From: Bacillota bacterium
Lineage (GTDB): Bacteria > Bacillota > Negativicutes > CTSoil-072
Reading direction: 5' to 3'
Length of the DNA stretch: 64,000 bases
NCBI GenBank assembly: GCA_017889545.1
Contig: JAGFZV010000009.1
Coordinates: 1 to 64,000, forward strand
Part shown: in pieces, positions 5,305 through 17,871 of the stretch
Numbering within the stretch: the stretch's first letter is position 1
Layout: each line of letters opens with the position of its first letter
Made by a program: the position numbers and the translations under genes
Notes under the pieces: generated by a model
Told to the model about the DNA's origin: nothing
Seen by the model: only the letters and a program-made list of their open reading frames with translations
Database searches by the model: none

Positions 5305-5342
5305 TCCCCGACCTACAAGCCGCTGGTTGAAAGGGTGAAAAC

Positions 5343-5383
5343 AAACTGCCTCTCAAAATTTCAAAGCTATTGAGAAGCAGTTT
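5343..5383 (-). terminator. Terminator of the ten-gene redox operon
   Basis: AAACTGCCTCTCAA pairs with TTGAGAAGCAGTTT (one bulge), 17 bp past the last stop codon of the minus-strand operon. Confidence 0.65.
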
Positions 5384-5399
5384 ATTTTCAGCTTTTAAC

Positions 5400-5723
5400 T
5401 TATTTTTTACAGTCACAACTCACATTTCCGGCAACTATTTCCTTCCAGTCTCCAATGGCATCATGGGTCCAGCAATCGTCTGCGCCAGCTGCTTCACGCA
5501 TCGTCAATGCAAAGATATAAGACAACTCCCTGACCGTCGCTCCGGCTTCCAGCGCGCCTTTAAAATGCTTAAGCACACAAGGTTTAGAGCGGCCTTTGAT
5601 CGAAAGAGCAAAACAAATAAATTGATATGTTTTTTCATCAATCATTCTTTTTTCTTGATAAAGCCGATCTATTTCATCCAGCTTTTCAGCAAATTCAGGA
5701 AAAAATTCAGCCAGCATTCTCAT
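5400..5723 (-). CDS. AhpD-like (carboxymuconolactone decarboxylase fold) protein
   Basis: 107 residues, all helical, with the CMD/AhpD core: SKPCVLKHFKGALEAGATVRELSYIFALTMREAAGAD. The usual AhpD CxxC-x2-H is reduced to a single-Cys form, C-V-L-K-H; two more cysteines lie at the C-terminus (CDC). In known AhpD the Cys pair is reduced by a lipoyl domain and dihydrolipoamide dehydrogenase, and both are encoded in the same operon here, which supports a thiol-redox role. It is the last gene, 18 bp after arsR. Exact reaction is unknown. Confidence 0.7.
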   Translation of the reverse strand: MRMLAEFFPEFAEKLDEIDRLYQEKRMIDEKTYQFICFALSIKGRSKPCVLKHFKGALEAGATVRELSYIFALTMREAAGADDCWTHDAIGDWKEIVAGNVSCDCKK

Positions 5724-5741
5724 AGGAATACCCTCCCATTT

Positions 5742-6071
5742 TTATTTATCTTTCAAAAATTTCAATATGCTTTGGCTGCGGCCAATTTGCTCACTTAACG
5801 TTTTTTCCGCAGCGCTGACCACATCAAGAACCGATGGATAAACAATCTGATAGATCACTTTTTGACCATCCTTATGGGAATCGATAATCCCCTGCTTTTT
5901 CAATACGCCCAAATGTTGCGATAAGTTTGATTGCTCAATGTCAACTTCCTCGATGATTTCACACACGCAGCGCTCACCTTTCTCCAACGTATGCAGAATT
6001 TTTATCCGCGCCGGATGAGACAGCGTTTTAAAAAAATCAGCCGTCATTTTTACAACAATGTCTTCCGCCAT
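5742..6071 (-). CDS. ArsR/SmtB-family metal(loid)-responsive repressor
   Basis: 109 residues with the ArsR winged helix (FFKTLSHPARIKILHTL ... EQSNLSQHLGVLKKQGII). GERCVCEIIEEV carries the Cys-x-Cys pair that in ArsR senses As(III)/Sb(III). The start at 6071 follows TTGGGAGG; an upstream frame is not used. It sits as gene nine of a ten-gene unit whose promoter holds the palindrome ATTTGAT-G-ATCAAAT (10568-10582), so it may repress the whole unit from inside. Ligand is inferred from the Cys pair. Confidence 0.88.
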   Translation of the reverse strand: MAEDIVVKMTADFFKTLSHPARIKILHTLEKGERCVCEIIEEVDIEQSNLSQHLGVLKKQGIIDSHKDGQKVIYQIVYPSVLDVVSAAEKTLSEQIGRSQSILKFLKDK

Positions 6072-6099
6072 GATATCCTCCCAACAAAAACGTCTGATA

Positions 6100-6405
6100 T
6101 TATTTTTCTCCTGAAACAACCAACCACTTAAGAAAAAGCAGTTTTTCCATCTTTACTGTAATCCCCTTGAACAGTTCTGACAAACTCGGTAGGTAATAGA
6201 CACTGACGCCATCAATCTCTATGCGTTCGTAATTATCAATAATCGCAGGTTTTCCCAGTCTCACGGACGGGTAGCGAGGCGTTTGCCCGCACTTTCCGCT
6301 ACCTCAAACTCCGCCCGGACGTTCCACCACGCTTAAGGTAATACTGCAATCCAACGATTTCATTTTGATATACTCTTGGGCTGCTAATTCAATATGAAGA
6401 TCCAT
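6100..6405 (-). CDS. HesB-like selenoprotein, UGA read as selenocysteine at residue 34
   Basis: Missed by ordinary ORF finding because of an in-frame TGA (6304-6306). Reading through gives 101 residues: MDLHIELAAQEYIKMK..., then VERPGGV-Sec-GSGKCGQTPR, then YPSVRLGKPAIIDNYERIEIDGV...FLKWLVV. Sec34 and Cys39 occupy the place of the metal or thiol cysteines of HesB/IscA-like proteins. AGGAGG precedes the ATG by 7 nt. Directly after the TGA lies a strong bacterial SECIS hairpin (6270-6303). The downstream half has protein-like composition and ends 28 bp before arsR, as expected for an operon gene. A nonsense-mutated gene is the alternative. Function is probably Fe-S, metal or redox handling. Confidence 0.82.
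6270..6306 (-). promoter_or_regulatory. Bacterial SECIS element with UGA codon
   Basis: Immediately 3' of the UGA the stem GGTAGCG/CGCTACC (7 perfect pairs) encloses a smaller stem GCG/CGC with apical loop GGCAAA. The loop starts 17 nt after the UGA and opens with GG, matching the known bSECIS rule (apical loop about 16-37 nt away, G in the first two loop positions) for SelB recruitment. Confidence 0.8.
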
Positions 6406-6445
6406 GACCGCCCCTCCTAAAAGTATTTCACCTTAACGCCATAAG

Positions 6446-6670
6446 TCAAATTTTCAGTTTTAATGGCCCGTGGAAAAAGTGCAAATCCCGCCTTGACAGC
6501 CCCAAGCACTCATATCTAAGTTTTCTTCCGGCAATCATCATGCCGAAAGCTATGACCAGCGCAATGCTCAGACTTTTTTTCTTGCCTTCGCGCCGCATGC
6601 CATGACTATGTCCATGGCTGTGACTATGATTACAACCTTCATAACCATGAGTGTGAGTATCCATATTCAT
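6446..6670 (-). pseudogene. Truncated CDF (CzcD-type) metal transporter N-terminus
   Basis: 74 residues. The N-terminus is His-rich (THTHGYEGCNHSHSHGHSHG) followed by SLSIALVIAFGMMIAG, the start of the first membrane helix of cation diffusion facilitators. The homology then stops and an unrelated tail (RKLRYECLGLSRRD...) leads to the stop. A full CDF protein has about 300 residues, so this looks like a deletion remnant. It could still be expressed as a small His-rich metal-binding peptide, since it keeps its place (22 bp after a DGC gene) in the operon. Confidence 0.55.
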
Positions 6671-6692
6671 GTCCCTTTAATCCTAGGCGTCT

Positions 6693-7157
6693 CTAACAAT
6701 CGCATCCGCAACTACAGGATGAACTCTTTCGAGCGCCTGAGTCTTTCCCTTTCGCGTTCATAATTTCATCAAACTGCTTCGTTATCTCAGCCGCCACTTT
6801 GTCCACCATGGCCTGATGTTCTGTTGTCAGGTCCCGGGTAGATAATGCCGGGCTTTCTGCGAATTCATCGCCGATAATTTCCGAAACAAAAACCACACTG
6901 TTGACCTTGCCGCTATATTTTTCTGTGGCGCGTTTGGCACAAGCCTGTTTGCAGCCGTCAACAGCAATCGTCGGGTATTCCTTGGCAAACATTCTTTCCT
7001 CTTGTCCACCCGCTATAAAGAGCGGTAAGCAAATAGTTACGGTATTGTCAGGCCGTATCTCGTCTATCATTTTCCGTGTGGCTAACCGGGAGATTGTTCC
7101 GCCGGCACAATCTTCTCCACTGCATGATACAACGCCGATTTTCAATTCTTCCGCCAT
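6693..7157 (-). CDS. DGC-domain putative zinc-binding protein with Cys-rich tail
   Basis: 154 residues. The N-terminal VVSCSGEDCAGG and central VDGCKQACAKRA are the conserved Cys motifs of the DGC family (putative zinc-binding). The C-terminus adds SSSCSCGCDC, a probable extra metal or thiol site. ATG at 7157 follows AAAGGAGGAG. It lies 4 bp after another DGC gene, and three DGC proteins follow each other in this unit. The biochemical role of DGC proteins is not established; the neighbours (lipoyl fusion, Lpd, Fe-S proteins) suggest sulfur, selenium or metal redox chemistry. Confidence 0.75.
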   Translation of the reverse strand: MAEELKIGVVSCSGEDCAGGTISRLATRKMIDEIRPDNTVTICLPLFIAGGQEERMFAKEYPTIAVDGCKQACAKRATEKYSGKVNSVVFVSEIIGDEFAESPALSTRDLTTEHQAMVDKVAAEITKQFDEIMNAKGKDSGARKSSSCSCGCDC

Positions 7158-7161
7158 GTTC

Positions 7162-7572
7162 CTATCTCTCCTCCTTTTGGATTTCCTGTACCCGCTCGGC
7201 GATCTTTGCTGCAATTTCTTCCGTAATGGCCCAGCCTTCCGGTGTCAATTCCGTCGCAGTTCCCGGTTTTGCCCCTTTGTGCAATTTCATGACATCAAGT
7301 ACTTTTAATTCTTCCTTGATATCGCCGCCCATAGCAGCCACGCTTTTTGCCGAACACATAGCCGGACAGCCATCAACTGTAATACAGGGTTGATTATCAA
7401 ATCCAGCCAACGCTTCCTCATCACCGGTAACAATATACGCCAAGCAAAGCGTCTTTGCCTGTTCCGGGCAAAGACGCTGCACTGTATGCAGCACCGCTTC
7501 GCGAGCCATCAGTCCATATACCTTTCCCATGCCGCTGCAAGCGATAACGTTAACCTTTTTGTTTGTTGACAT
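7162..7572 (-). CDS. DGC-domain putative zinc-binding protein
   Basis: 136 residues from the ATG at 7572, preferred over an ATG nine bases upstream that touches the AAAGGTGG site. VIACSGMGKVYGLMAREA at the N-terminus and ITVDGCPAMCSAKS in the middle give the DGC pattern, though the first motif keeps only one Cys. The start lies inside the 3' end of the upstream fusion gene (22-bp overlap), pointing to translational coupling. Role unknown; see the operon finding. Confidence 0.75.
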   Translation of the reverse strand: MSTNKKVNVIACSGMGKVYGLMAREAVLHTVQRLCPEQAKTLCLAYIVTGDEEALAGFDNQPCITVDGCPAMCSAKSVAAMGGDIKEELKVLDVMKLHKGAKPGTATELTPEGWAITEEIAAKIAERVQEIQKEER

Positions 7573-8425
7573 GGAATTCATCCACCTTTTTCTTTAAGAT
7601 TTTCATATAATCTGCCGTGTTCAGCAGAAAATCTTTTTCTTCGTCAAAATTGGTCAATTCCAGTTCAGCAACCCAGCCTTGCTCATACGGATTTTCATTG
7701 ATCCGTTCCGGCGCAGTCAATAGTTCTGTGTTCACTGCCACAACTTTGCCGCTGACCGGGCAAATCAGCTCGAAAACCGCTTTGCCGGATTCGACGTTTC
7801 CGGCTTCGTCGAATTGTTCCAATTCTACCCCGACTGGTGGCGGCGTAAAGAACATAATATCCGACAAACTTTGCTGCATGAAGTCCGTGATCCCGATACG
7901 GGCCCGATTACCGACGACCTGCAGCCAGCAATCGTTCTCCGAAAAATAAAATCCTTCGGTCGGCACACGGAAAATAAACTTATCTTTTTTATGGATGAGG
8001 TACTCTGCAGGAGCAGGAAATTCCACAGCTTGAACCATTTGTTCCGGTACGGCGGTTTCTTCTTTGATGAATTCATCCGCCATCGCAGTACAAAGGGCAA
8101 TTTCTTTTTCGCTGAGTCGAAGCGTATCTGTTGGCAGTGTCACGCCCCGTTTTTGCGCCTCTTCCGTCACCGTCATTTTGCGAAAAATTTTCAAGCCCTT
8201 TTCGCCGGCCAGTTTGCTGGCGCAGCGTGTTCCGCAGCCATCCACAACCAACAGCGGATTTTCTTTTGCGATCTTATCATAGCGGGCATCAGCAACCCGG
8301 TAAAATACCGGACAAATCATTTCATTTTGCGTGCCTTCGCAAAGAAGCATCGCAATTTCTTTGGTCATTTGCCCAGCACATTTGTCCAGGCCATTGCAGG
8401 GTAAAACAGCGTATTTGTCACTCAT
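7550..8425 (-). CDS. Fusion of a DGC domain with a lipoyl-type GcvH-like domain
   Basis: 291 residues. Residues 1-85 are a DGC domain (LPCNGLDKCAG with C10 and C16; VDGCGTRCAS with C64 and C68). Residues about 150-270 are a glycine-cleavage H-protein-like domain: RARIGITDFMQQSLSDI, then VESGKAVFELICPVSGKV, in which K215 fills the lipoyl-lysine place of H proteins, then NPYEQGWVAELEL. No glycine decarboxylase genes are nearby, so a role in glycine cleavage is unlikely. Lpd, encoded three genes upstream, is the natural partner to reoxidise or reduce the lipoyl arm. It overlaps both neighbours by a few bases. Confidence 0.82.
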   Translation of the reverse strand: MSDKYAVLPCNGLDKCAGQMTKEIAMLLCEGTQNEMICPVFYRVADARYDKIAKENPLLVVDGCGTRCASKLAGEKGLKIFRKMTVTEEAQKRGVTLPTDTLRLSEKEIALCTAMADEFIKEETAVPEQMVQAVEFPAPAEYLIHKKDKFIFRVPTEGFYFSENDCWLQVVGNRARIGITDFMQQSLSDIMFFTPPPVGVELEQFDEAGNVESGKAVFELICPVSGKVVAVNTELLTAPERINENPYEQGWVAELELTNFDEEKDFLLNTADYMKILKKKVDEFHVNKQKG

Positions 8426-8717
8426 GACTGCTCATCGCCTCCCGCGTTTCTTTGATTTTCTTCGATACTTCCGCCTTACTGGGGAAGGTTAGCGCATCCG
8501 GACCACACGTTTTGCTGCAGGCCCGGCAAAATACCACACAATTCAAAGGGTTGGCAACGACAAGCTTGATCGGTTCATTTTCCCGTTTTTCAAATACATG
8601 GTGCGGACAAAAGTCAAAACATTCCATGCAGTAGTCGCATTTTTCATAATCAATCGTCGGTTTCCAGTCAATCGTATCTCTGGGCACACCCATAAAGGTA
8701 TCTTTGTCTTCGCTCAT
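8418..8717 (-). CDS. Two-cluster 4Fe-4S ferredoxin-like protein
   Basis: 99 residues. The first cluster motif is CDYCMECFDFCPHHVF (Cx2Cx2Cx3CP-like); the second is less regular, NCVVFCRACSKTCGPDAL. Cytoplasmic, no transmembrane segment. The stop overlaps the start of the DGC/H-like fusion gene and its start abuts the HdrA-like gene, so the three are tightly coupled. It probably passes electrons between the HdrA-like domain and the lipoyl/Lpd couple; direction is unknown. Confidence 0.82.
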   Translation of the reverse strand: MSEDKDTFMGVPRDTIDWKPTIDYEKCDYCMECFDFCPHHVFEKRENEPIKLVVANPLNCVVFCRACSKTCGPDALTFPSKAEVSKKIKETREAMSSHE

Positions 8718-9100
8718 TATTCTTCATCCCCCTCAAAACCCAATTCTTTAAGCGCTTTTTTTACTTTTTCAATCGCCTTTTCATTGGTCATGTCTCGAAT
8801 ATCGAGCATAACAGCATCTTTTTCCACATCAAGCCCCGCATCCTTAAAAGCCTGTTTAAACATTTTTTTCTGCATATTGGGCGCGCAGGCTCCAATGATT
8901 ACCTTCCTGTTTGCTTTCAAAAAGTCCGCTAGAAAACGGTCGCCATCTTCTTCACAGAGCTGCGGATGAATGAATCCGTATTCTACCGGAAGTTCCACCC
9001 GTACCTGGTTGATAAAGTCCCAAATGTCCATTGCCTTAAATCCCGGACACTTTCCTGTGCATACGCACATAATAAAGCCATAACGTTCTTTTTCTTCCAT
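8717..9100 (-). CDS. Stand-alone HdrA N-terminal-like domain
   Basis: 127 residues from ATG 9100 (GGGAGGAA 8 nt before). It resembles only the first 120 or so residues of heterodisulfide reductase subunit A: IMCVCTGKCPGFKAMDIWDF at the N-terminus, QLCEEDGDRFL, VIIGACAPNMQKKMFKQAFKDAGL, then IRDMTNEKAIEKVKKAL. The FAD domain and C-terminal ferredoxin domains of HdrA are missing. Conserved cysteines probably hold an Fe-S cluster or a disulfide. Lies between lpd and the ferredoxin gene. Confidence 0.72.
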   Translation of the reverse strand: MEEKERYGFIMCVCTGKCPGFKAMDIWDFINQVRVELPVEYGFIHPQLCEEDGDRFLADFLKANRKVIIGACAPNMQKKMFKQAFKDAGLDVEKDAVMLDIRDMTNEKAIEKVKKALKELGFEGDEE

Positions 9101-9144
9101 GATAAATTCCTCCCTAACTTTAACTATTCCTCGGTTTTGTTCTT

Positions 9145-10542
9145 CTATGCTTTGTGGATCGAGCGTCCGACTGCATCGGCGCACGCTTCCATAACGGCTT
9201 CGCTCAACGTGGGGTGAGGATGAATAAGATCCGCAACCTCATCGGCGGTATGACGGAAAGCGATCGCCATTGTCATTTCGGAAATCAGTTCCGTCGCGGA
9301 TGATCCAAAAATTTGTGCGCCTAGAATAATGTGGCTCCGGCTATCCGTAACAACCTTCACCAGTCCTTCCCGTTCGCCCATGCACAAAGCTCGTCCGTTG
9401 GTACGGAACATGAAGCGTCCTACCCGCACTTCATAGCCGTTTTCAACGGCTTCTTGCTCCGTCATGCCGACTGCAGCCAATTCCGGCTGAATATACACAC
9501 AAGACGGAAGCGCATGATAGGTCATGACCTTCGACATCCCCAGCGCATTTTCTACCGCGATCCGACCTTCCGCATATGCTTTGTGGGCCAGCATCTTTCC
9601 GCCAATTACATCACCGGCCGCATAAATTCCCGGAAGGCTTGTTTGCAGATGTTCATTAACGATCAAGGCCCCCTTTGCATCCGTTACCGCCCCTAATGCA
9701 AGCAATCCTCTCGGTACTGACGGTTTTCGACCGGCAGCAAGCAGCACGTAGTCGGCTTCCAGCTGTTCTTCTTTTTCTTGGCGTAAAAATTTCACAGTCG
9801 TTCCTGAATCAGCAGCAGTAATTCCCGTGACTGTGCTGGATAATTGGATTGCAATTCTTTGGCGTTTCATACTCTTCAGTACTTCAGCCGCCATTTCACC
9901 GTCTTCGTTGGGCAAAACCTGATCGGCCATTTCGATAATGGTAACCTTGCTTCCTAGTTCATTAAACATCTGGGCAAACTCCAGGCCAATCACTCCGCCG
10001 CCGATGATGGTCAAGCGGTTTGGTACAGCTTCCATCTCTAGGATTTCGTTACTCGTCAGTACAGTCGGTGCGTCTATTCCCGGGATAGGCGGCCGCATCG
10101 GCACAGACCCGGTAGCTACAAGAAATTTCTTGCTCTGTAGTTCCAGCACGCCTTCTTCTGTTTCCACCTTCAACCGGTCAAAATGAGTAAAATCCCCTTT
10201 TCCTTTAACAAGATGGATCCGGTCGTTGCGCAGCAAATATTCCACACCCATGCGTAGGCTCTTAACCACCCTGGCTTTTCGGCTGTGCGCTGCGGACCAA
10301 TCTATTGGCAGCATTGAAGTCGTCACGCCAAATTCTGCTCCTTTGCGGAAAAGAGCATTGAACTCCGCTGTCCGCAACAATGCCTTGGTTGGGATACAGC
10401 CTCGATTTAAGCACACGCCGCCAATTTGATCGTGTTCAACGATGGTAACACGCGACCCAAGCTGCGCAGCCCGAATGGCTGCCAAATATCCGGCTGGCCC
10501 TCCGCCCAAAATAACAAGATCCGCTCGTTCTTTCCAATCCAT
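9145..10542 (-). CDS. lpdA: Dihydrolipoamide dehydrogenase (E3)
   Basis: 465 residues, full length. FAD site GGGPAGYLAAIRAAQLG, redox-active disulfide GGVCLNRGCIPTK, NAD site GGGVIGLEFAQMFNELG, second FAD site GIYAAGDVIGGKMLAHKA, and the C-terminal catalytic HPHPTLSEAV (His-Glu). First gene of the ten-gene unit; GAGGAGATGGAG precedes the ATG. There is no 2-oxoacid dehydrogenase E1/E2 nearby, so its partner is probably the lipoyl H-like domain of the fusion protein three genes downstream. Reaction: NAD(H)-linked oxidation or reduction of dihydrolipoyl/lipoyl. Confidence 0.95.
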   Translation of the reverse strand: MDWKERADLVILGGGPAGYLAAIRAAQLGSRVTIVEHDQIGGVCLNRGCIPTKALLRTAEFNALFRKGAEFGVTTSMLPIDWSAAHSRKARVVKSLRMGVEYLLRNDRIHLVKGKGDFTHFDRLKVETEEGVLELQSKKFLVATGSVPMRPPIPGIDAPTVLTSNEILEMEAVPNRLTIIGGGVIGLEFAQMFNELGSKVTIIEMADQVLPNEDGEMAAEVLKSMKRQRIAIQLSSTVTGITAADSGTTVKFLRQEKEEQLEADYVLLAAGRKPSVPRGLLALGAVTDAKGALIVNEHLQTSLPGIYAAGDVIGGKMLAHKAYAEGRIAVENALGMSKVMTYHALPSCVYIQPELAAVGMTEQEAVENGYEVRVGRFMFRTNGRALCMGEREGLVKVVTDSRSHIILGAQIFGSSATELISEMTMAIAFRHTADEVADLIHPHPTLSEAVMEACADAVGRSIHKA

Positions 10543-10567: not shown

Positions 10568-10594
10568 ATTTGATGATCAAATGAGTATATTATA
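10568..10594 (-). promoter_or_regulatory. Operator and -10 box of the redox operon
   Basis: On the minus strand a TATAAT (10589-10594) is followed by the perfect palindrome ATTTGAT-G-ATCAAAT (10568-10582), 25 bp before the lpd start codon. Position and form suit an ArsR-family operator that blocks transcription start. Confidence 0.55.
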
Positions 10595-10769
10595 AAATTG
10601 TAATATATATAAACATAGAATACCCCCCCATATGTTAACTGTCAATTGTTTTTCAAAATTATTTCCGTTCCCTAGTTCCTTTCCCTCGTTGTTTCATCGT
10701 ACTTGTGCTTTAAAGGCGGAACCAAATTACCCATTTTTGTCCGAAATGCAAAGTTGGCTTCCATCGCCT

Positions 10770-13086: not shown

Positions 13087-13455
13087 ATGAGTGATATTCA
13101 ATCCAATAGTGAAAAACGAATTGTATACTCCTGCTCCGGATGTGCCGATGTGGGTGAATTGGCGGATCAGGTCTCTCGGAAGCTCCGCAAAGATGGGTAT
13201 GCCAAAGCTAGCGGCAGTTGTCTTGCCGGGATCGGAGCCGGATTCTCTTCTTTCATTGATGCTGCTAAAGAGGTCGAAACTGTCGTTACCGTTGATGGCT
13301 GTCCAGTCGGCTGCGCCAAAAAGATAATTGAAAATATTGGAATTACTCCACAAGCTATATTTTTGACCGAACTGGGCGTTGTAAAGGGACAGACTGCTGT
13401 AACACCCGAATTAATCAACCAAATGACACAATCAGTCGCCAAAAAGTTATCCTAG
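13087..13455 (+). CDS. DGC-domain putative zinc-binding protein, solitary
   Basis: 122 residues. YSCSGCADVGELADQV at the N-terminus and TVDGCPVGCAKKIIENIG in the middle show the DGC pattern; SGSCLAGIGAG adds a further Cys. It is the fourth DGC gene in 7 kb and the only one with its own promoter, lying just before the arsenic genes. AGGGAGG stands 9 nt before the ATG. Function unknown, likely linked to metal(loid) or sulfur stress. Confidence 0.78.
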   Translation: MSDIQSNSEKRIVYSCSGCADVGELADQVSRKLRKDGYAKASGSCLAGIGAGFSSFIDAAKEVETVVTVDGCPVGCAKKIIENIGITPQAIFLTELGVVKGQTAVTPELINQMTQSVAKKLS

Positions 13456-13656: not shown

Positions 13657-14658
13657 CTAATGAGCTGCAAAATATTTTTTAAAATACAATGCCACATTTA
13701 CCAAGCCAATCATCACCGGCACTTCAATCAGCGGTCCGATCACCGCAGCAAACGCCTCGCCGGAATTGATACCAAAAATAGCTACCGCAACTGCAATGGC
13801 GAGTTCGAAGTTATTGCTGGCAGCCGTGAAGGACAAGGTGGTTGTTTGCTCGTAATTGACTCCCATTCGCCAACTCAGCAAAAACGAAATCAAAAACATG
13901 ACTGCGAAATAAATAATCAACGGAATAGCAATCCGCACCACATCCATCGGTAGTTTCACAATATAGCTGCCTTTAAGTGAAAACATAATTACAATGGTAA
14001 ATAATAGAGAAATCAGCGCCAGAGGACTGATCTTAGGAATAAAGGTATTCTCATACCAGTCGCGACCTTTAGCAGGCAGCAAAAATCGCCGCGTAAGATA
14101 CCCCGCCAGGAAAGGAATACCAAGGTAAATCGCCACACTCATGGCTACATCCTGCATGGAAACCTGAATTTTCATCCCCGTAAACCCAATCCAGCCCGGC
14201 AATACCGTAATGAAGAAATAGGCAAAAATCGAATAAAATATCAGTTGAAAAATGGAATTTAATGCTACCAATGCTGCGGCATATTCCGTATCACCGTCCG
14301 CCAGCGAATTCCAAATAATCACCATCGCTATGCAGCGAGCAAGGCCGATTAGAATCAACCCTACCATGTATTCCGGCTGATCCGCTAAAAAGGTAATCGC
14401 CAAAATAAACATCAGCACCGGGCCGATGATCCAGTTTTGCACCAAAGATAAGACCATGACTTTAACATTGCGAAACACATTGCCCAGTTCCTCGTATTTC
14501 ACCTTGGCCAGCGGCGGATACATCATGACAATCAAACCAACCGCAATCGGTATGGAGGTCGTCCCAATCGTAAACTTGTCCAGCCACGCGGCAATTCCCG
14601 GAAACAAATAACCTCCGCCAACACCAATCGCCATTGCCACAAAAATCCACAATGTCAA
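13657..14658 (-). CDS. acr3: Arsenite efflux permease, ACR3 family
   Basis: About ten membrane segments; [19 protein letters not shown] contains the conserved Cys needed for As(III) transport in Acr3. The protein exports arsenite from the cytoplasm. From the TTG at 14658 it has 333 residues, but the family N-terminus [15 protein letters not shown] is encoded in frame upstream (to 14688), preceded by TTA and a TAA stop, with no ATG, GTG or TTG. Start is therefore unresolved (CTG at 14670 or a lost start codon). It follows the radical SAM gene by about 50 bp and probably shares its transcript with arsR. Confidence 0.92.
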
Positions 14659-14711: not shown

Positions 14712-15911
14712 CTACGGACAAGCAATCATCCTTCTGGCCCACAGACAGTCGGCACAGGATGGACTGTTGCCCCAGCAATCCATTTCGTTGCTTTCGGTAT
14801 AATTGCACCCGTCCAACGATTTGCAGTCCGTGCAGGAAGGAAAATGATAGTCCTTTACGGTTTGCCTGAAACGGACATAACGGGAATCCATCCAAATCTC
14901 ACGCAATGGTTTTTCGTTCACATTTCCCAAATGGTAAGCACTCATTCGCTTTTTCCGTCCATAGACATAACATTGATAGCTATGCATCAACGCATAGCAA
15001 GGACTGATATACCCCATATGATTGATACACAATGATTTATCGGCAATAAATTTACAATATCGCTCGGTTCGCAATTTCATATTTGCCATCTGCGCACGAA
15101 TCGAAGTCAAGAGTGAATCTTGACCAAATAAGTTTCCGGTATCATCCAAATCATAGACAATTTCATCCTTCATGGATTCATGATAAGGCATCAAATTGGT
15201 AACCACCACTTGGCTGGCATGCAAATCCCAGGCTAACCGGATCAGCTTCGGCAGACGGGCAAAATTTTTCTTCATCGCAACGAATTCAATACCAAGCTCC
15301 GGTTTTTTCGTGTTCTTTTCCTGCTTTAACGATTGCAACCGGACAACATTCTGATAAACACTTTGAAAATTGGCGCCTTGCCGAATTGCATTGTATTCCT
15401 CTTCTTCCGGACTATCTAATGAGGTAAACAAGACATCCAATTCAAGATCAATCAAGTTCCGAATCATTTCTTCCCGCAAAAACGATCCGTTAGTAATCAT
15501 TTCTACTCTCAATCCAAGCGACTTTACTGCTTTCAACATGTCAAAAATACGTGGATGCATCATGGGTTCACCAAAACCGCCAAAGTGAACTGACTGCAAG
15601 TCGGGTAACCCTTTGAGGCTTTCCAGTATATTTTCAAACGTTGTCCAATCCATGTGAATTAATTCATCTTCCCATGAACTGCGAATACAGGTTATGCAAT
15701 CAAAATTGCATTTCGTAGTAACTTCAATATAGATCCGTTTGACATCCGGAAGCAACGGCACGATCTGATAACCATCTGCTGTTTTAAAAAATAAAGCATC
15801 CTGTTCTTGTTTTAAAGATATCGGCAGTTTGGTAGAACCATCTTTTTGAATCCTTACTTTCTCTCCGGCTGTTAAACACTGAATTTGCGGTTTTTGCAAT
15901 GACCTTTTCAT
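14712..15911 (-). CDS. Radical SAM/SPASM protein in the ars operon
   Basis: 399 residues from ATG 15911 (GGAGG 6 nt upstream). Radical SAM motif CNFDCITC (CxxxCxxC) after YIEVTT, GGFGEPMMHP as the SAM-binding GGE-like motif, and a Cys-rich C-terminal SPASM-type region (CINHMGYISPCYA ... CTDCKSLDGC ... CWGNSPSCADC) for auxiliary Fe-S clusters. CITCIRSSW resembles radical SAM maturases linked to tungsten oxidoreductases, but no such enzyme is encoded here. Between arsR and acr3 it may modify an arsenic compound or a peptide. Substrate unknown. Confidence 0.8.
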   Translation of the reverse strand: MKRSLQKPQIQCLTAGEKVRIQKDGSTKLPISLKQEQDALFFKTADGYQIVPLLPDVKRIYIEVTTKCNFDCITCIRSSWEDELIHMDWTTFENILESLKGLPDLQSVHFGGFGEPMMHPRIFDMLKAVKSLGLRVEMITNGSFLREEMIRNLIDLELDVLFTSLDSPEEEEYNAIRQGANFQSVYQNVVRLQSLKQEKNTKKPELGIEFVAMKKNFARLPKLIRLAWDLHASQVVVTNLMPYHESMKDEIVYDLDDTGNLFGQDSLLTSIRAQMANMKLRTERYCKFIADKSLCINHMGYISPCYALMHSYQCYVYGRKKRMSAYHLGNVNEKPLREIWMDSRYVRFRQTVKDYHFPSCTDCKSLDGCNYTESNEMDCWGNSPSCADCLWARRMIACP

Positions 15912-15932
15912 ATTCTTCCTCCACACAACCCA

Positions 15933-16585: not shown

Positions 16586-17029
16586 ATGTCCGAATGTAAC
16601 CAAGCCAAAATGTTAAGAGAAAATTTGCGAGTATTAGTCCGTCAGCTGGGAGTTCTGGAACGCGAGGAAGCATCCTGCTGCGACATCACACTGAGTCAAT
16701 GCCATACGATTGTTGAAATTGGCAGAGCAGGAAGCATTTCCATCAACGCTCTTGCAGAAATTTTGAGACTTGATAAGAGCACAGTCAGCCGTTCCGTCGA
16801 CAAATTGGTAAATGACGAACTCATTGTGCGCGATACTAACCCGGATGATAGGCGCTACCTCACGCTGCATCTCAGTGAAAAAGGACAATCTCTGTTTGCA
16901 GAAGTGGAAGCCAGAATGGCTGTTTATTTTGAAAATGTGATTGACACGCTTCCCGCCGATAAACGCGAACAAGTTATTGAAAGCTTGCAATATCTGACAC
17001 AAGCACTGCCAGGATTCCGATGTTGCTGA
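16586..17029 (+). CDS. MarR-family regulator, Cys-rich, of the arsM unit
   Basis: 147 residues from ATG 16586 (AAAGGAG 8 nt before). Winged helix SINALAEILRLDKSTVSRSVDKLVNDELIVRD plus wing DPDDRRYLTLHLSEKG-type sequence. Three cysteine sites, ASCCDITLSQC near the N-terminus and FRCC at the end, are unusual for MarR and may bind As(III) or sense oxidation. The gene ends 26 bp before arsM, so it probably controls it. An imperfect inverted repeat around 16508-16552 is a candidate operator. Confidence 0.85.
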   Translation: MSECNQAKMLRENLRVLVRQLGVLEREEASCCDITLSQCHTIVEIGRAGSISINALAEILRLDKSTVSRSVDKLVNDELIVRDTNPDDRRYLTLHLSEKGQSLFAEVEARMAVYFENVIDTLPADKREQVIESLQYLTQALPGFRCC

Positions 17030-17055
17030 TAAACCAAAACGAAAGGAGAGTATTT

Positions 17056-17871
17056 ATGGATAAAGATCTTCGTGAACAGGTAATGAAAAAATATGCCATG
17101 GCCATCAAAACAAAATCAAGCTGCTGTGGCTCTTCCGTCTGTTGCGGTGAAAATCAGGAGGCGACGAAAGCAATCACCGGAAATTTGTATGAAGCAGCGG
17201 AAATAGAAGGTTTGCCAAAAGATCTTTTGGCTACCTCATTGGGCTGCGGCAACCCAACGGCGCTGGAAACTCTCCACGCCGGAGAAATTGTGCTGGATCT
17301 AGGCAGCGGAGCCGGTTTGGATGTCTTGCTTTCCGCCAAAAGAGTTGCCCCATCCGGAAAAGCATATGGGCTGGACATGACGGACGAAATGTTGGCGGAA
17401 GCGAATTCCAATAAAGAAAAATCCGGACTTGCTAACGTAGAATTTCTAAAAGGCCATATTGAAGATATTCCATTGCCTGAGTCTTCTGTTGATGTCGTGA
17501 TCTCTAATTGCGTGATTAATCTGTCGGCAGACAAAGATCAGGTTTTTCGTGAAATCTTTCGGGTTCTAAAACCCGGCGGAAGGCTTGCAGTATCCGATAT
17601 TGTAACAACCAAGCCGTTACCCGCCAAAATTCAAAATGATCTGTTAGCGTGGTCCGGCTGCATTGCCGGGGCATTAACCGAACAAGAATATCAGAATAAA
17701 CTGTCTAAAACCGGCTTTACGGATATCGAAATCATCTTCACCAGAGTGTATGACTTGACCAGTTCAACAGCACAAAAAATTGTCGCTGCGATGACGGAGA
17801 ACGAGCTGAAGGAATTTAACGGCTCATTGGTCAGCGCATTCGTACGGGCAAAAAAACCGACTTCCACCTAA
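17056..17871 (+). CDS. arsM: Arsenite methyltransferase
   Basis: 271 residues. SAM motif VLDLGSGAGLDVLL; the conserved As(III)-binding cysteines appear in SLGCGNP, ISNCVINL and WSGCIAGAL, and an N-terminal SSCCGSSVCCG tract is typical of the family. It methylates arsenite stepwise with SAM to mono-, di- and trimethyl species in the cytoplasm. AAAGGAG precedes ATG 17056. Co-transcribed with marR. Confidence 0.95.
   Translation: MDKDLREQVMKKYAMAIKTKSSCCGSSVCCGENQEATKAITGNLYEAAEIEGLPKDLLATSLGCGNPTALETLHAGEIVLDLGSGAGLDVLLSAKRVAPSGKAYGLDMTDEMLAEANSNKEKSGLANVEFLKGHIEDIPLPESSVDVVISNCVINLSADKDQVFREIFRVLKPGGRLAVSDIVTTKPLPAKIQNDLLAWSGCIAGALTEQEYQNKLSKTGFTDIEIIFTRVYDLTSSTAQKIVAAMTENELKEFNGSLVSAFVRAKKPTST

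Follow-up and report, generated by a model that had tools for sequence, protein, structure and literature searches.

The window analysed here is a stretch of 64,000 nucleotides from a Bacillota bacterium (Negativicutes, CTSoil-072; contig JAGFZV010000009.1 of assembly GCA_017889545.1). On its minus strand, ten reading frames follow one another from 10542 to 5400, among them genes for a dihydrolipoyl dehydrogenase (Lpd), a fusion of a DGC domain with a GcvH-type lipoyl domain (dgcH), an HdrA-like protein and a ferredoxin. The locus raises the question of which process would use a lipoyl protein in this company. A conserved set of genes around the lipoyl protein, shared by unrelated anaerobes, usually has arsenic-resistance genes as neighbours, and this suggests a route of arsenic handling that is so far undescribed.

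Consecutive genes of the run overlap or are separated by no more than 44 bp (Table 1). The co-directional ten-gene layout proposed in a preliminary description of this DNA was borne out when coordinates and spacing were re-derived, with all genes on the minus strand. The family annotations also held, namely Lpd, the DGC and GCV_H fusion, DGC2, DGC3, a selenoprotein of NF041239, ArsR and a weakly matching AhpD/CMD protein.

Judged from sequence comparison, five of these genes are a core in fixed order (hdrA-like, fdx, dgcH, dgc2 and dgc3), which is often accompanied by a dedicated Lpd and lipoate ligase. The order was kept in 27/27 loci from 15 genera, where G765, G766 and G767 were counted as one genus each; L023 is cut by a contig end and has a partial fdx and no HdrA-like gene, and L024, also cut, has a partial dgcH and nothing beyond. 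A fusion search of 381 genomes of the class gave five further full-fusion loci in four genomes, a phylum sample of 399 genomes gave eight more genomes with the full fusion, and a contig search added three contigs (L022-L024). A later search of the class gave ten new loci in eight genomes, and the core order was intact in all ten. L022 and L023 are metagenome-bin contigs labelled Bacteroidales and Dehalococcoidales, whose phylum could be a binning error; a Chloroflexota-type sample around L023 gave 1 of 201 genomes. Two copies of the locus were present in Lucifera butyrica (L020 and L021), and L035 has a second dgc2-dgc3 pair a few kb further on. A gene for Lpd lay within 12 kb of dgcH in 17/27 loci. 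In 12/27 loci an LplA or LipA gene was no more than 20 kb away, none of these adjoining the window operon, and an ArsR gene was nearby in 26/27.

The core was also recovered from its other end. When the 399 genomes were searched independently with the HdrA-like protein, nine genomes gave full-length matches at 70% identity or above, and these were the same nine that carry the full fusion; in a tenth (G745), the hdrA-like gene is truncated and sits in a degenerate lpd-hdrA'-ahpD-arsR cluster. Since the core order was conserved and hdrA-like and dgcH coincided in 9/9 genomes, the outcome that the preliminary description had named as refuting its idea, a gene set not conserved together elsewhere, did not occur. 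In the same sample, 14 genomes carry a second HdrA-like clade at 40-44% identity. Five loci of this clade, in other families (L063, L064, L066, L067 and L068), have a ferredoxin partner, and two of them add an AhpD-like protein with CxxC. In four of the five, acr3 or further ars genes (Acr3/ArsA/ArsP) were nearby; in L064 the ars neighbours were limited to ArsR, an ArsE-type thioredoxin and a permease resembling ArsP.

Residues expected of redox proteins were conserved. Lys215 of the fusion, the predicted lipoyl acceptor, was invariant in 14 aligned fusions and the lpd gene adjoins the core, in agreement with the earlier proposal of an H domain competent for lipoylation beside its own Lpd. The redox cysteines of Lpd and all eight cluster cysteines of the ferredoxin were conserved. 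In the HdrA-like protein, five cysteines were invariant in 16/16 sequences, and four of them align with the CxC...C...C pattern in the N-terminal domain of HdrA; this domain is the only part of HdrA present, without FAD or NAD domains. A plasmid search with this protein as the query gave no match. The window copy (8709-9113) shares 93% identity (83% for the DNA, across 405 bp) with its counterpart in G581, which belongs to another class; the remaining core genes show about 51-61% identity to G581 and are nearer to Negativicutes, and because of this discrepancy the hdrA-like gene is likely a gene-replacement patch.

DGC2 has five invariant cysteines. The model of DGC3 showed a confident alpha/beta fold with weak, generic fold matches, among them a weak Foldseek match to 3rof (E = 0.011, template modelling score 0.43), and a sequence search of the PDB with DGC3 found no relative. 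The fusion was modelled with a mean predicted local distance difference test (pLDDT) score of 51; its GcvH part was unusable and its Foldseek matches uninformative. DGC was considered as a homologue of ArsC and low-molecular-weight protein tyrosine phosphatases, and this was rejected on the weak fold match, a profile comparison giving 0.5% probability and the lack of the CX5R phosphate-binding loop, DGC3 having CSGEDCAG with Arg lacking at that place.

Subsequently, we consider the surroundings of the core. Because Acr3 is nearly universal in the class of G634, its position was used instead of its presence or absence. Acr3 positions were taken from 16 genomes, and the genera counted were those with Acr3 over the cut-off. 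Acr3 lay within 21 kb of dgcH in 7/9 genera against 0.18 expected (P about 3e-11, ignoring shared ancestry and the horizontal transfer of whole islands), a descriptive figure in that the 21-kb limit was picked after the distances were seen. When neighbourhoods were clustered without supervision, the families recurring most often outside the core were ArsR (13 genera), Lpd (10), LplA (7), Acr3 (7) and TauE (7). A wider marker set comprised acr3, arsA, arsD, arsM, an ArsP-type permease and arsC by tblastn score. Among the 17 loci found first, 14 had such a marker no more than 20 kb away; over all loci the count was 19/27, from 12/15 genera, figures to be read with an expected rate computed for Acr3 only. 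ArsP_1 is weaker evidence than Acr3, ArsA, ArsD and ArsM, because this permease family is broad and gives scores with copper and zinc exporters too. Most ArsR proteins neighbouring the loci have a CxC motif, as metal(loid) sensors do. Acr3, ArsA/D, ArsM, ArsP-type and ArsR neighbours back the metal(loid) link that had been proposed earlier. An ars operon that includes a 4Fe-4S ferredoxin has been described in a Firmicute (PMC9751042), and we counted it for the arsenic reading.

The window itself has acr3 and arsM beyond the operon. A fourth DGC gene, on the plus strand, adjoins acr3 and is convergent with it. Between acr3 and an arsR gene, positions 14712-15926 encode a radical SAM maturase of a tungsten-cofactor oxidoreductase (TIGR04317); this match ruled out an arsenosugar label for the gene, and TIGR04317 relatives occur near dgcH in three other genera.

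These observations can be arranged into a mechanism. The H domain would be lipoylated on Lys215, as its sequence predicts. As is known for Lpd and H proteins, NADH is able to recharge a lipoyl arm, and here, by way of Lpd, it would restore the dihydrolipoyl dithiol. The swinging arm would then bring the dithiol to DGC2, DGC3 and the DGC domain of the fusion, all Cys-rich. Their site would reduce or hold an arsenic species, either taking pentavalent or methylated arsenic to As(III) or keeping As(III) as a dithiolate, and Acr3/ArsP would export this species or ArsM methylate it. The HdrA-like protein and the ferredoxin would exchange low-potential electrons with the same site. In this proposal the operon would operate along the lines of other dedicated lipoyl redox systems. 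The dihydrolipoyl arm is the classical target poisoned by As(III). That it should here deliberately bind and reduce (thio- or methyl-)arsenic in a lipoate-dependent pathway, with DGC as a new arsenic-handling class and the HdrA N-terminal domain and ferredoxin as the low-potential electron source, is possible and on balance rather doubtful. The broader proposal, a module usually with an ArsR regulator that sits mostly in arsenic-detoxification islands of anaerobes and acts as the thiol/Fe-S relay outlined above, under ArsR control, is tentative and falls a little short of an even chance.

Several observations weigh against the arsenic reading. In the replication set, a marker was found at 5/10 loci and in 5/8 genomes, below the preset level of at least 60% when loci are counted; the result stayed above the preset refutation limit of 30%, and some of these loci lie near contig ends. 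Three genomes (G422, G487 and G767) have no Acr3 at all, in genus g115 lpd is not adjacent, and the profile comparison of DGC with ArsC found no similarity. The least certain step is the substrate, as we infer both DGC as the partner and arsenic as what it handles. Furthermore, the genes near dgcH include TauE/SafE in 7 genera and, in 12-13/27 loci from 4 genera, a cysteine desulfurase (TIGR01977), and these two are the main reason that arsenic is not confidently assigned as the substrate.

The latter genes would be expected if the lipoyl arm took persulfide or selenide from the desulfurase for processing by DGC and the HdrA-like protein, with TauE exporting sulfite, in a transfer of sulfane sulfur or selenium like that of LbpA/sHdr. 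The arsenic genes would then reflect thio-arsenic or sulfide-arsenic chemistry, or islands that collect resistance genes. A rhodanese-like protein in L034 fits this explanation, as do the HdrA-type domain, the dedicated LplA and the ArsR-type regulator, all known from sHdr (PMC6067878, PMC12423496). The desulfurase is, however, confined to its 4 genera, the window ArsR is not BigR (60 bits, cut-off 155), the Acr3 enrichment is not predicted from sulfur alone, and HdrB/HdrC, TusA and DsrE were not recognised among the neighbours read, where no profile search was made for them. Sulfur or selenium transfer of this kind is considered unlikely, although with desulfurase and TauE/SafE genes recurring, a sulfur role may exist. 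In L075/L076, L089 and L073 (genera g105 and g365), the desulfurase and a small protein preceding it lie about 2-4 kb upstream of dgcH; the small protein may belong to DUF3343.

An explanation by soft metals starts from the CDF genes found near dgcH in 5 genera and the ArsP_1-type and half-size permeases among the neighbours: DGC would bind zinc, copper or cadmium as a metallochaperone feeding efflux by CDF and ArsP-type permeases, and the redox proteins would keep thiols reduced. The CVCE-type ArsR is compatible with Cd/Pb sensors too. The arsenic-specific families Acr3, ArsA, ArsD and ArsM were nevertheless recognised in more genera than CDF, and the CDF gene of the window is a pseudogene. 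The frame at 6446-6670, at first read as a His-rich gene, proved to be what a central deletion has left of a CDF transporter gene. The intact relatives in L011, L012 and L013 have 313-324 aa; the window retains the first ~47 residues, the DNA match stops at 6529, and the C-terminus (EENLDMSAWGCQGGICTFSTGH*) follows frame-shifted at 6460-6528. We regard soft-metal handling as quite improbable.

The mycobacterial AhpC-AhpD-lipoyl (SucB/DlaT)-Lpd chain is a peroxidase system, and Lpd, a lipoyl protein as thiol reductant and an AhpD-fold gene occur together in the window as well. Here, Lpd and the lipoyl protein might reduce the AhpD-like partner and guard against oxidative damage caused by metals. 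AhpD-like genes also lie near L013 and L024, with CxxC kept, and near G1020. In contrast to the mycobacterial chain, no AhpC is in the operon, the AhpD-like gene is outside the core, and its window copy has SKPC in place of CxxC and so lacks the first Cys; SKPC is shared by relatives at 86% (L062) and 60% (L070) identity. Close relatives of the window protein were found near other loci (86% in the degenerate operon L062, 82% near G1020) and one at 60% in the ars island of G581, whereas only in the window is the gene directly within an intact operon. The earlier idea of an electron path ending in the AhpD-like protein is not supported. With two Fe-S proteins in the set that would be sensitive to oxygen as a further objection, thiol or peroxide defence is very improbable.

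We continue to prefer the arsenic reading. By the features compared below, the operon falls outside four known systems, namely sHdr, SirTM, glycine cleavage and AhpD. It shares with the H protein of glycine cleavage the domain family and the lipoyl Lys, but has ESGKA in place of ESVKA and is fused to DGC; gcvP and gcvT are absent from the operon, and a separate gcvT-H-P operon (L016) exists in the same genome. That genome also has two lpd-GcvH pairs outside glycine cleavage, lpd 6343-7725 with H protein 7789-8193 beside a glutaredoxin-like gene (L017) and lpd 6461-7855 with H protein 7859-8245 beside an OsmC-like gene (L018), both neighbours labelled by eye. The resemblance to LbpA/sHdr (PMC6067878) lies in a GcvH-like lipoyl protein outside glycine cleavage, a dedicated lipoate ligase (here the invariant Lys, and lplA/lipA in 12/27 loci), an HdrA-type sequence and an ArsR-type regulator. 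In contrast to it, the lipoyl protein is fused to DGC, and HdrA is represented by its N-terminal domain only, the ten operon genes including neither HdrB nor HdrC. An Lpd gene is present as well, and the surroundings are those of arsenic resistance, not of sulfur oxidation. The GcvH-L/LplA2/SirTM-macrodomain operons (PMC4518038) likewise combine an operon-borne GcvH-like protein, its own lipoate ligase and a link to stress. Here, DGC, HdrA-like and ferredoxin genes stand in place of the sirtuin and macrodomain genes, none of which is among the ten operon genes, other loci not having been searched. With the ars operons (ArsC/thioredoxin, Acr3, ArsA/ArsD, ArsM, ArsP) the operon shares neighbourhood and regulator family, having acr3 and arsM in the window itself; the ars systems compared have no lipoyl, DGC or HdrA-like part, and the terms lipo, heterodisulfide and ferredoxin are all absent from an ars survey (PMC4435449).

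The selenoprotein, ArsR and the AhpD-like protein are variable accessories. The selenoprotein scored 52 bits against NF041239 (curated cut-off 40). We read its UGA as selenocysteine because of this family match, the in-frame UGA at the same place in the L012 selenoprotein and a tRNA-Sec match over the cut-off in the same genome; the stem after the UGA, neat by eye, was not significant as a selenocysteine insertion sequence (SECIS) by folding (z = -1.1).

A single promoter and a single terminator had been proposed for the operon. Supporting this, the -35, the -10 and an AT-rich block just downstream were conserved in five related Negativicutes loci, and a strong hairpin comes after the last gene. 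With 18 promoter-like sites in the region against 12 expected, internal promoters may be present. The palindrome TTTGATGATCAAA within the candidate operator occurs once in the window against 0.01 expected. It was rejected as a shared ArsR site, being absent from the 49 loci compared; the AT-rich block does recur, in the five related loci.

Table 1. Positions and supporting matches of the operon genes, their signals and neighbouring genes in the window.
Feature	Position	Strand	Spacing to next operon gene	Basis
Operon promoter, TTGACA-17-TATTCT	10617..10645	-		Consensus scan; upstream of lpd
Candidate operator, AT-rich block and palindrome (10569-10581)	10569..10607	-		Upstream alignment; palindrome window-specific
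lpd, dihydrolipoyl dehydrogenase, 465 aa, redox Cys44/Cys49	9145..10542	-	gap 44 bp	TIGR01350, 523 bits, cut-off 409
hdrA-like, small protein, 127 aa	8717..9100	-	overlap 1	PDB 7bkb_A, E = 4e-4
fdx, 2[4Fe-4S] ferredoxin, 99 aa	8418..8717	-	overlap 8	Pfam Fer4
dgcH, DGC-GcvH fusion, 291 aa, putative lipoyl-acceptor Lys215 in ESGKAVFE	7550..8425	-	overlap 32	PF08859 and PF01597
dgc2, DGC2, 139 aa	7162..7581	-	gap 4	PF08859
dgc3, DGC3, 154 aa, Cys-rich tail	6693..7157	-	22	PF08859; AlphaFold2 mean pLDDT 84
His-rich open reading frame	6446..6670	-	40	
CDF cation-efflux pseudogene	6460..6670	-		N-terminal part (6529-6670) followed in another frame by C-terminal part (6460-6528)
sel, CC/Se-motif selenoprotein, 101 aa, selenocysteine at UGA 6304-6306	6100..6405	-	28	NF041239
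arsR, ArsR/SmtB regulator, CVCE motif	5742..6071	-	18	NF033788; motif survey
ahpD, AhpD/CMD-like protein	5400..5723	-		Weak TIGR00778 and PF02627 matches
Terminator hairpin	5330..5396	-		27-nt arms, 85% complementary; -31 kcal/mol, z = -6.3
Fourth DGC protein, neighbourhood, not operon	13087..13455	+		Alignment with DGC2/DGC3; retains the DGC motif
acr3, arsenite efflux, neighbourhood, not operon	13657..14658	-		TIGR00832, 446 bits, cut-off 283
arsM, arsenite methyltransferase, neighbourhood, not operon	17020..17871	+		NF008823, 344 bits, cut-off 263

The preliminary description had known of no described system with this set. In agreement with this, no description of the gene set and no counterpart was found in the full texts searched, mostly without subscription papers and preprints, and no paper citing PF08859 was found there. 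Lipoic acid has its known roles in 2-oxoacid dehydrogenases, in glycine cleavage and, more recently, in sulfur oxidation. If the proposal is true, lipoic acid would have a further use, on a dedicated lipoyl protein encoded in arsenic islands, and the DGC-domain proteins would gain their first function. Lucifera butyrica, which is cultured and has two copies of the locus, is a carrier in which the idea is directly testable. The pathway would also explain part of the arsenic tolerance of anaerobes.

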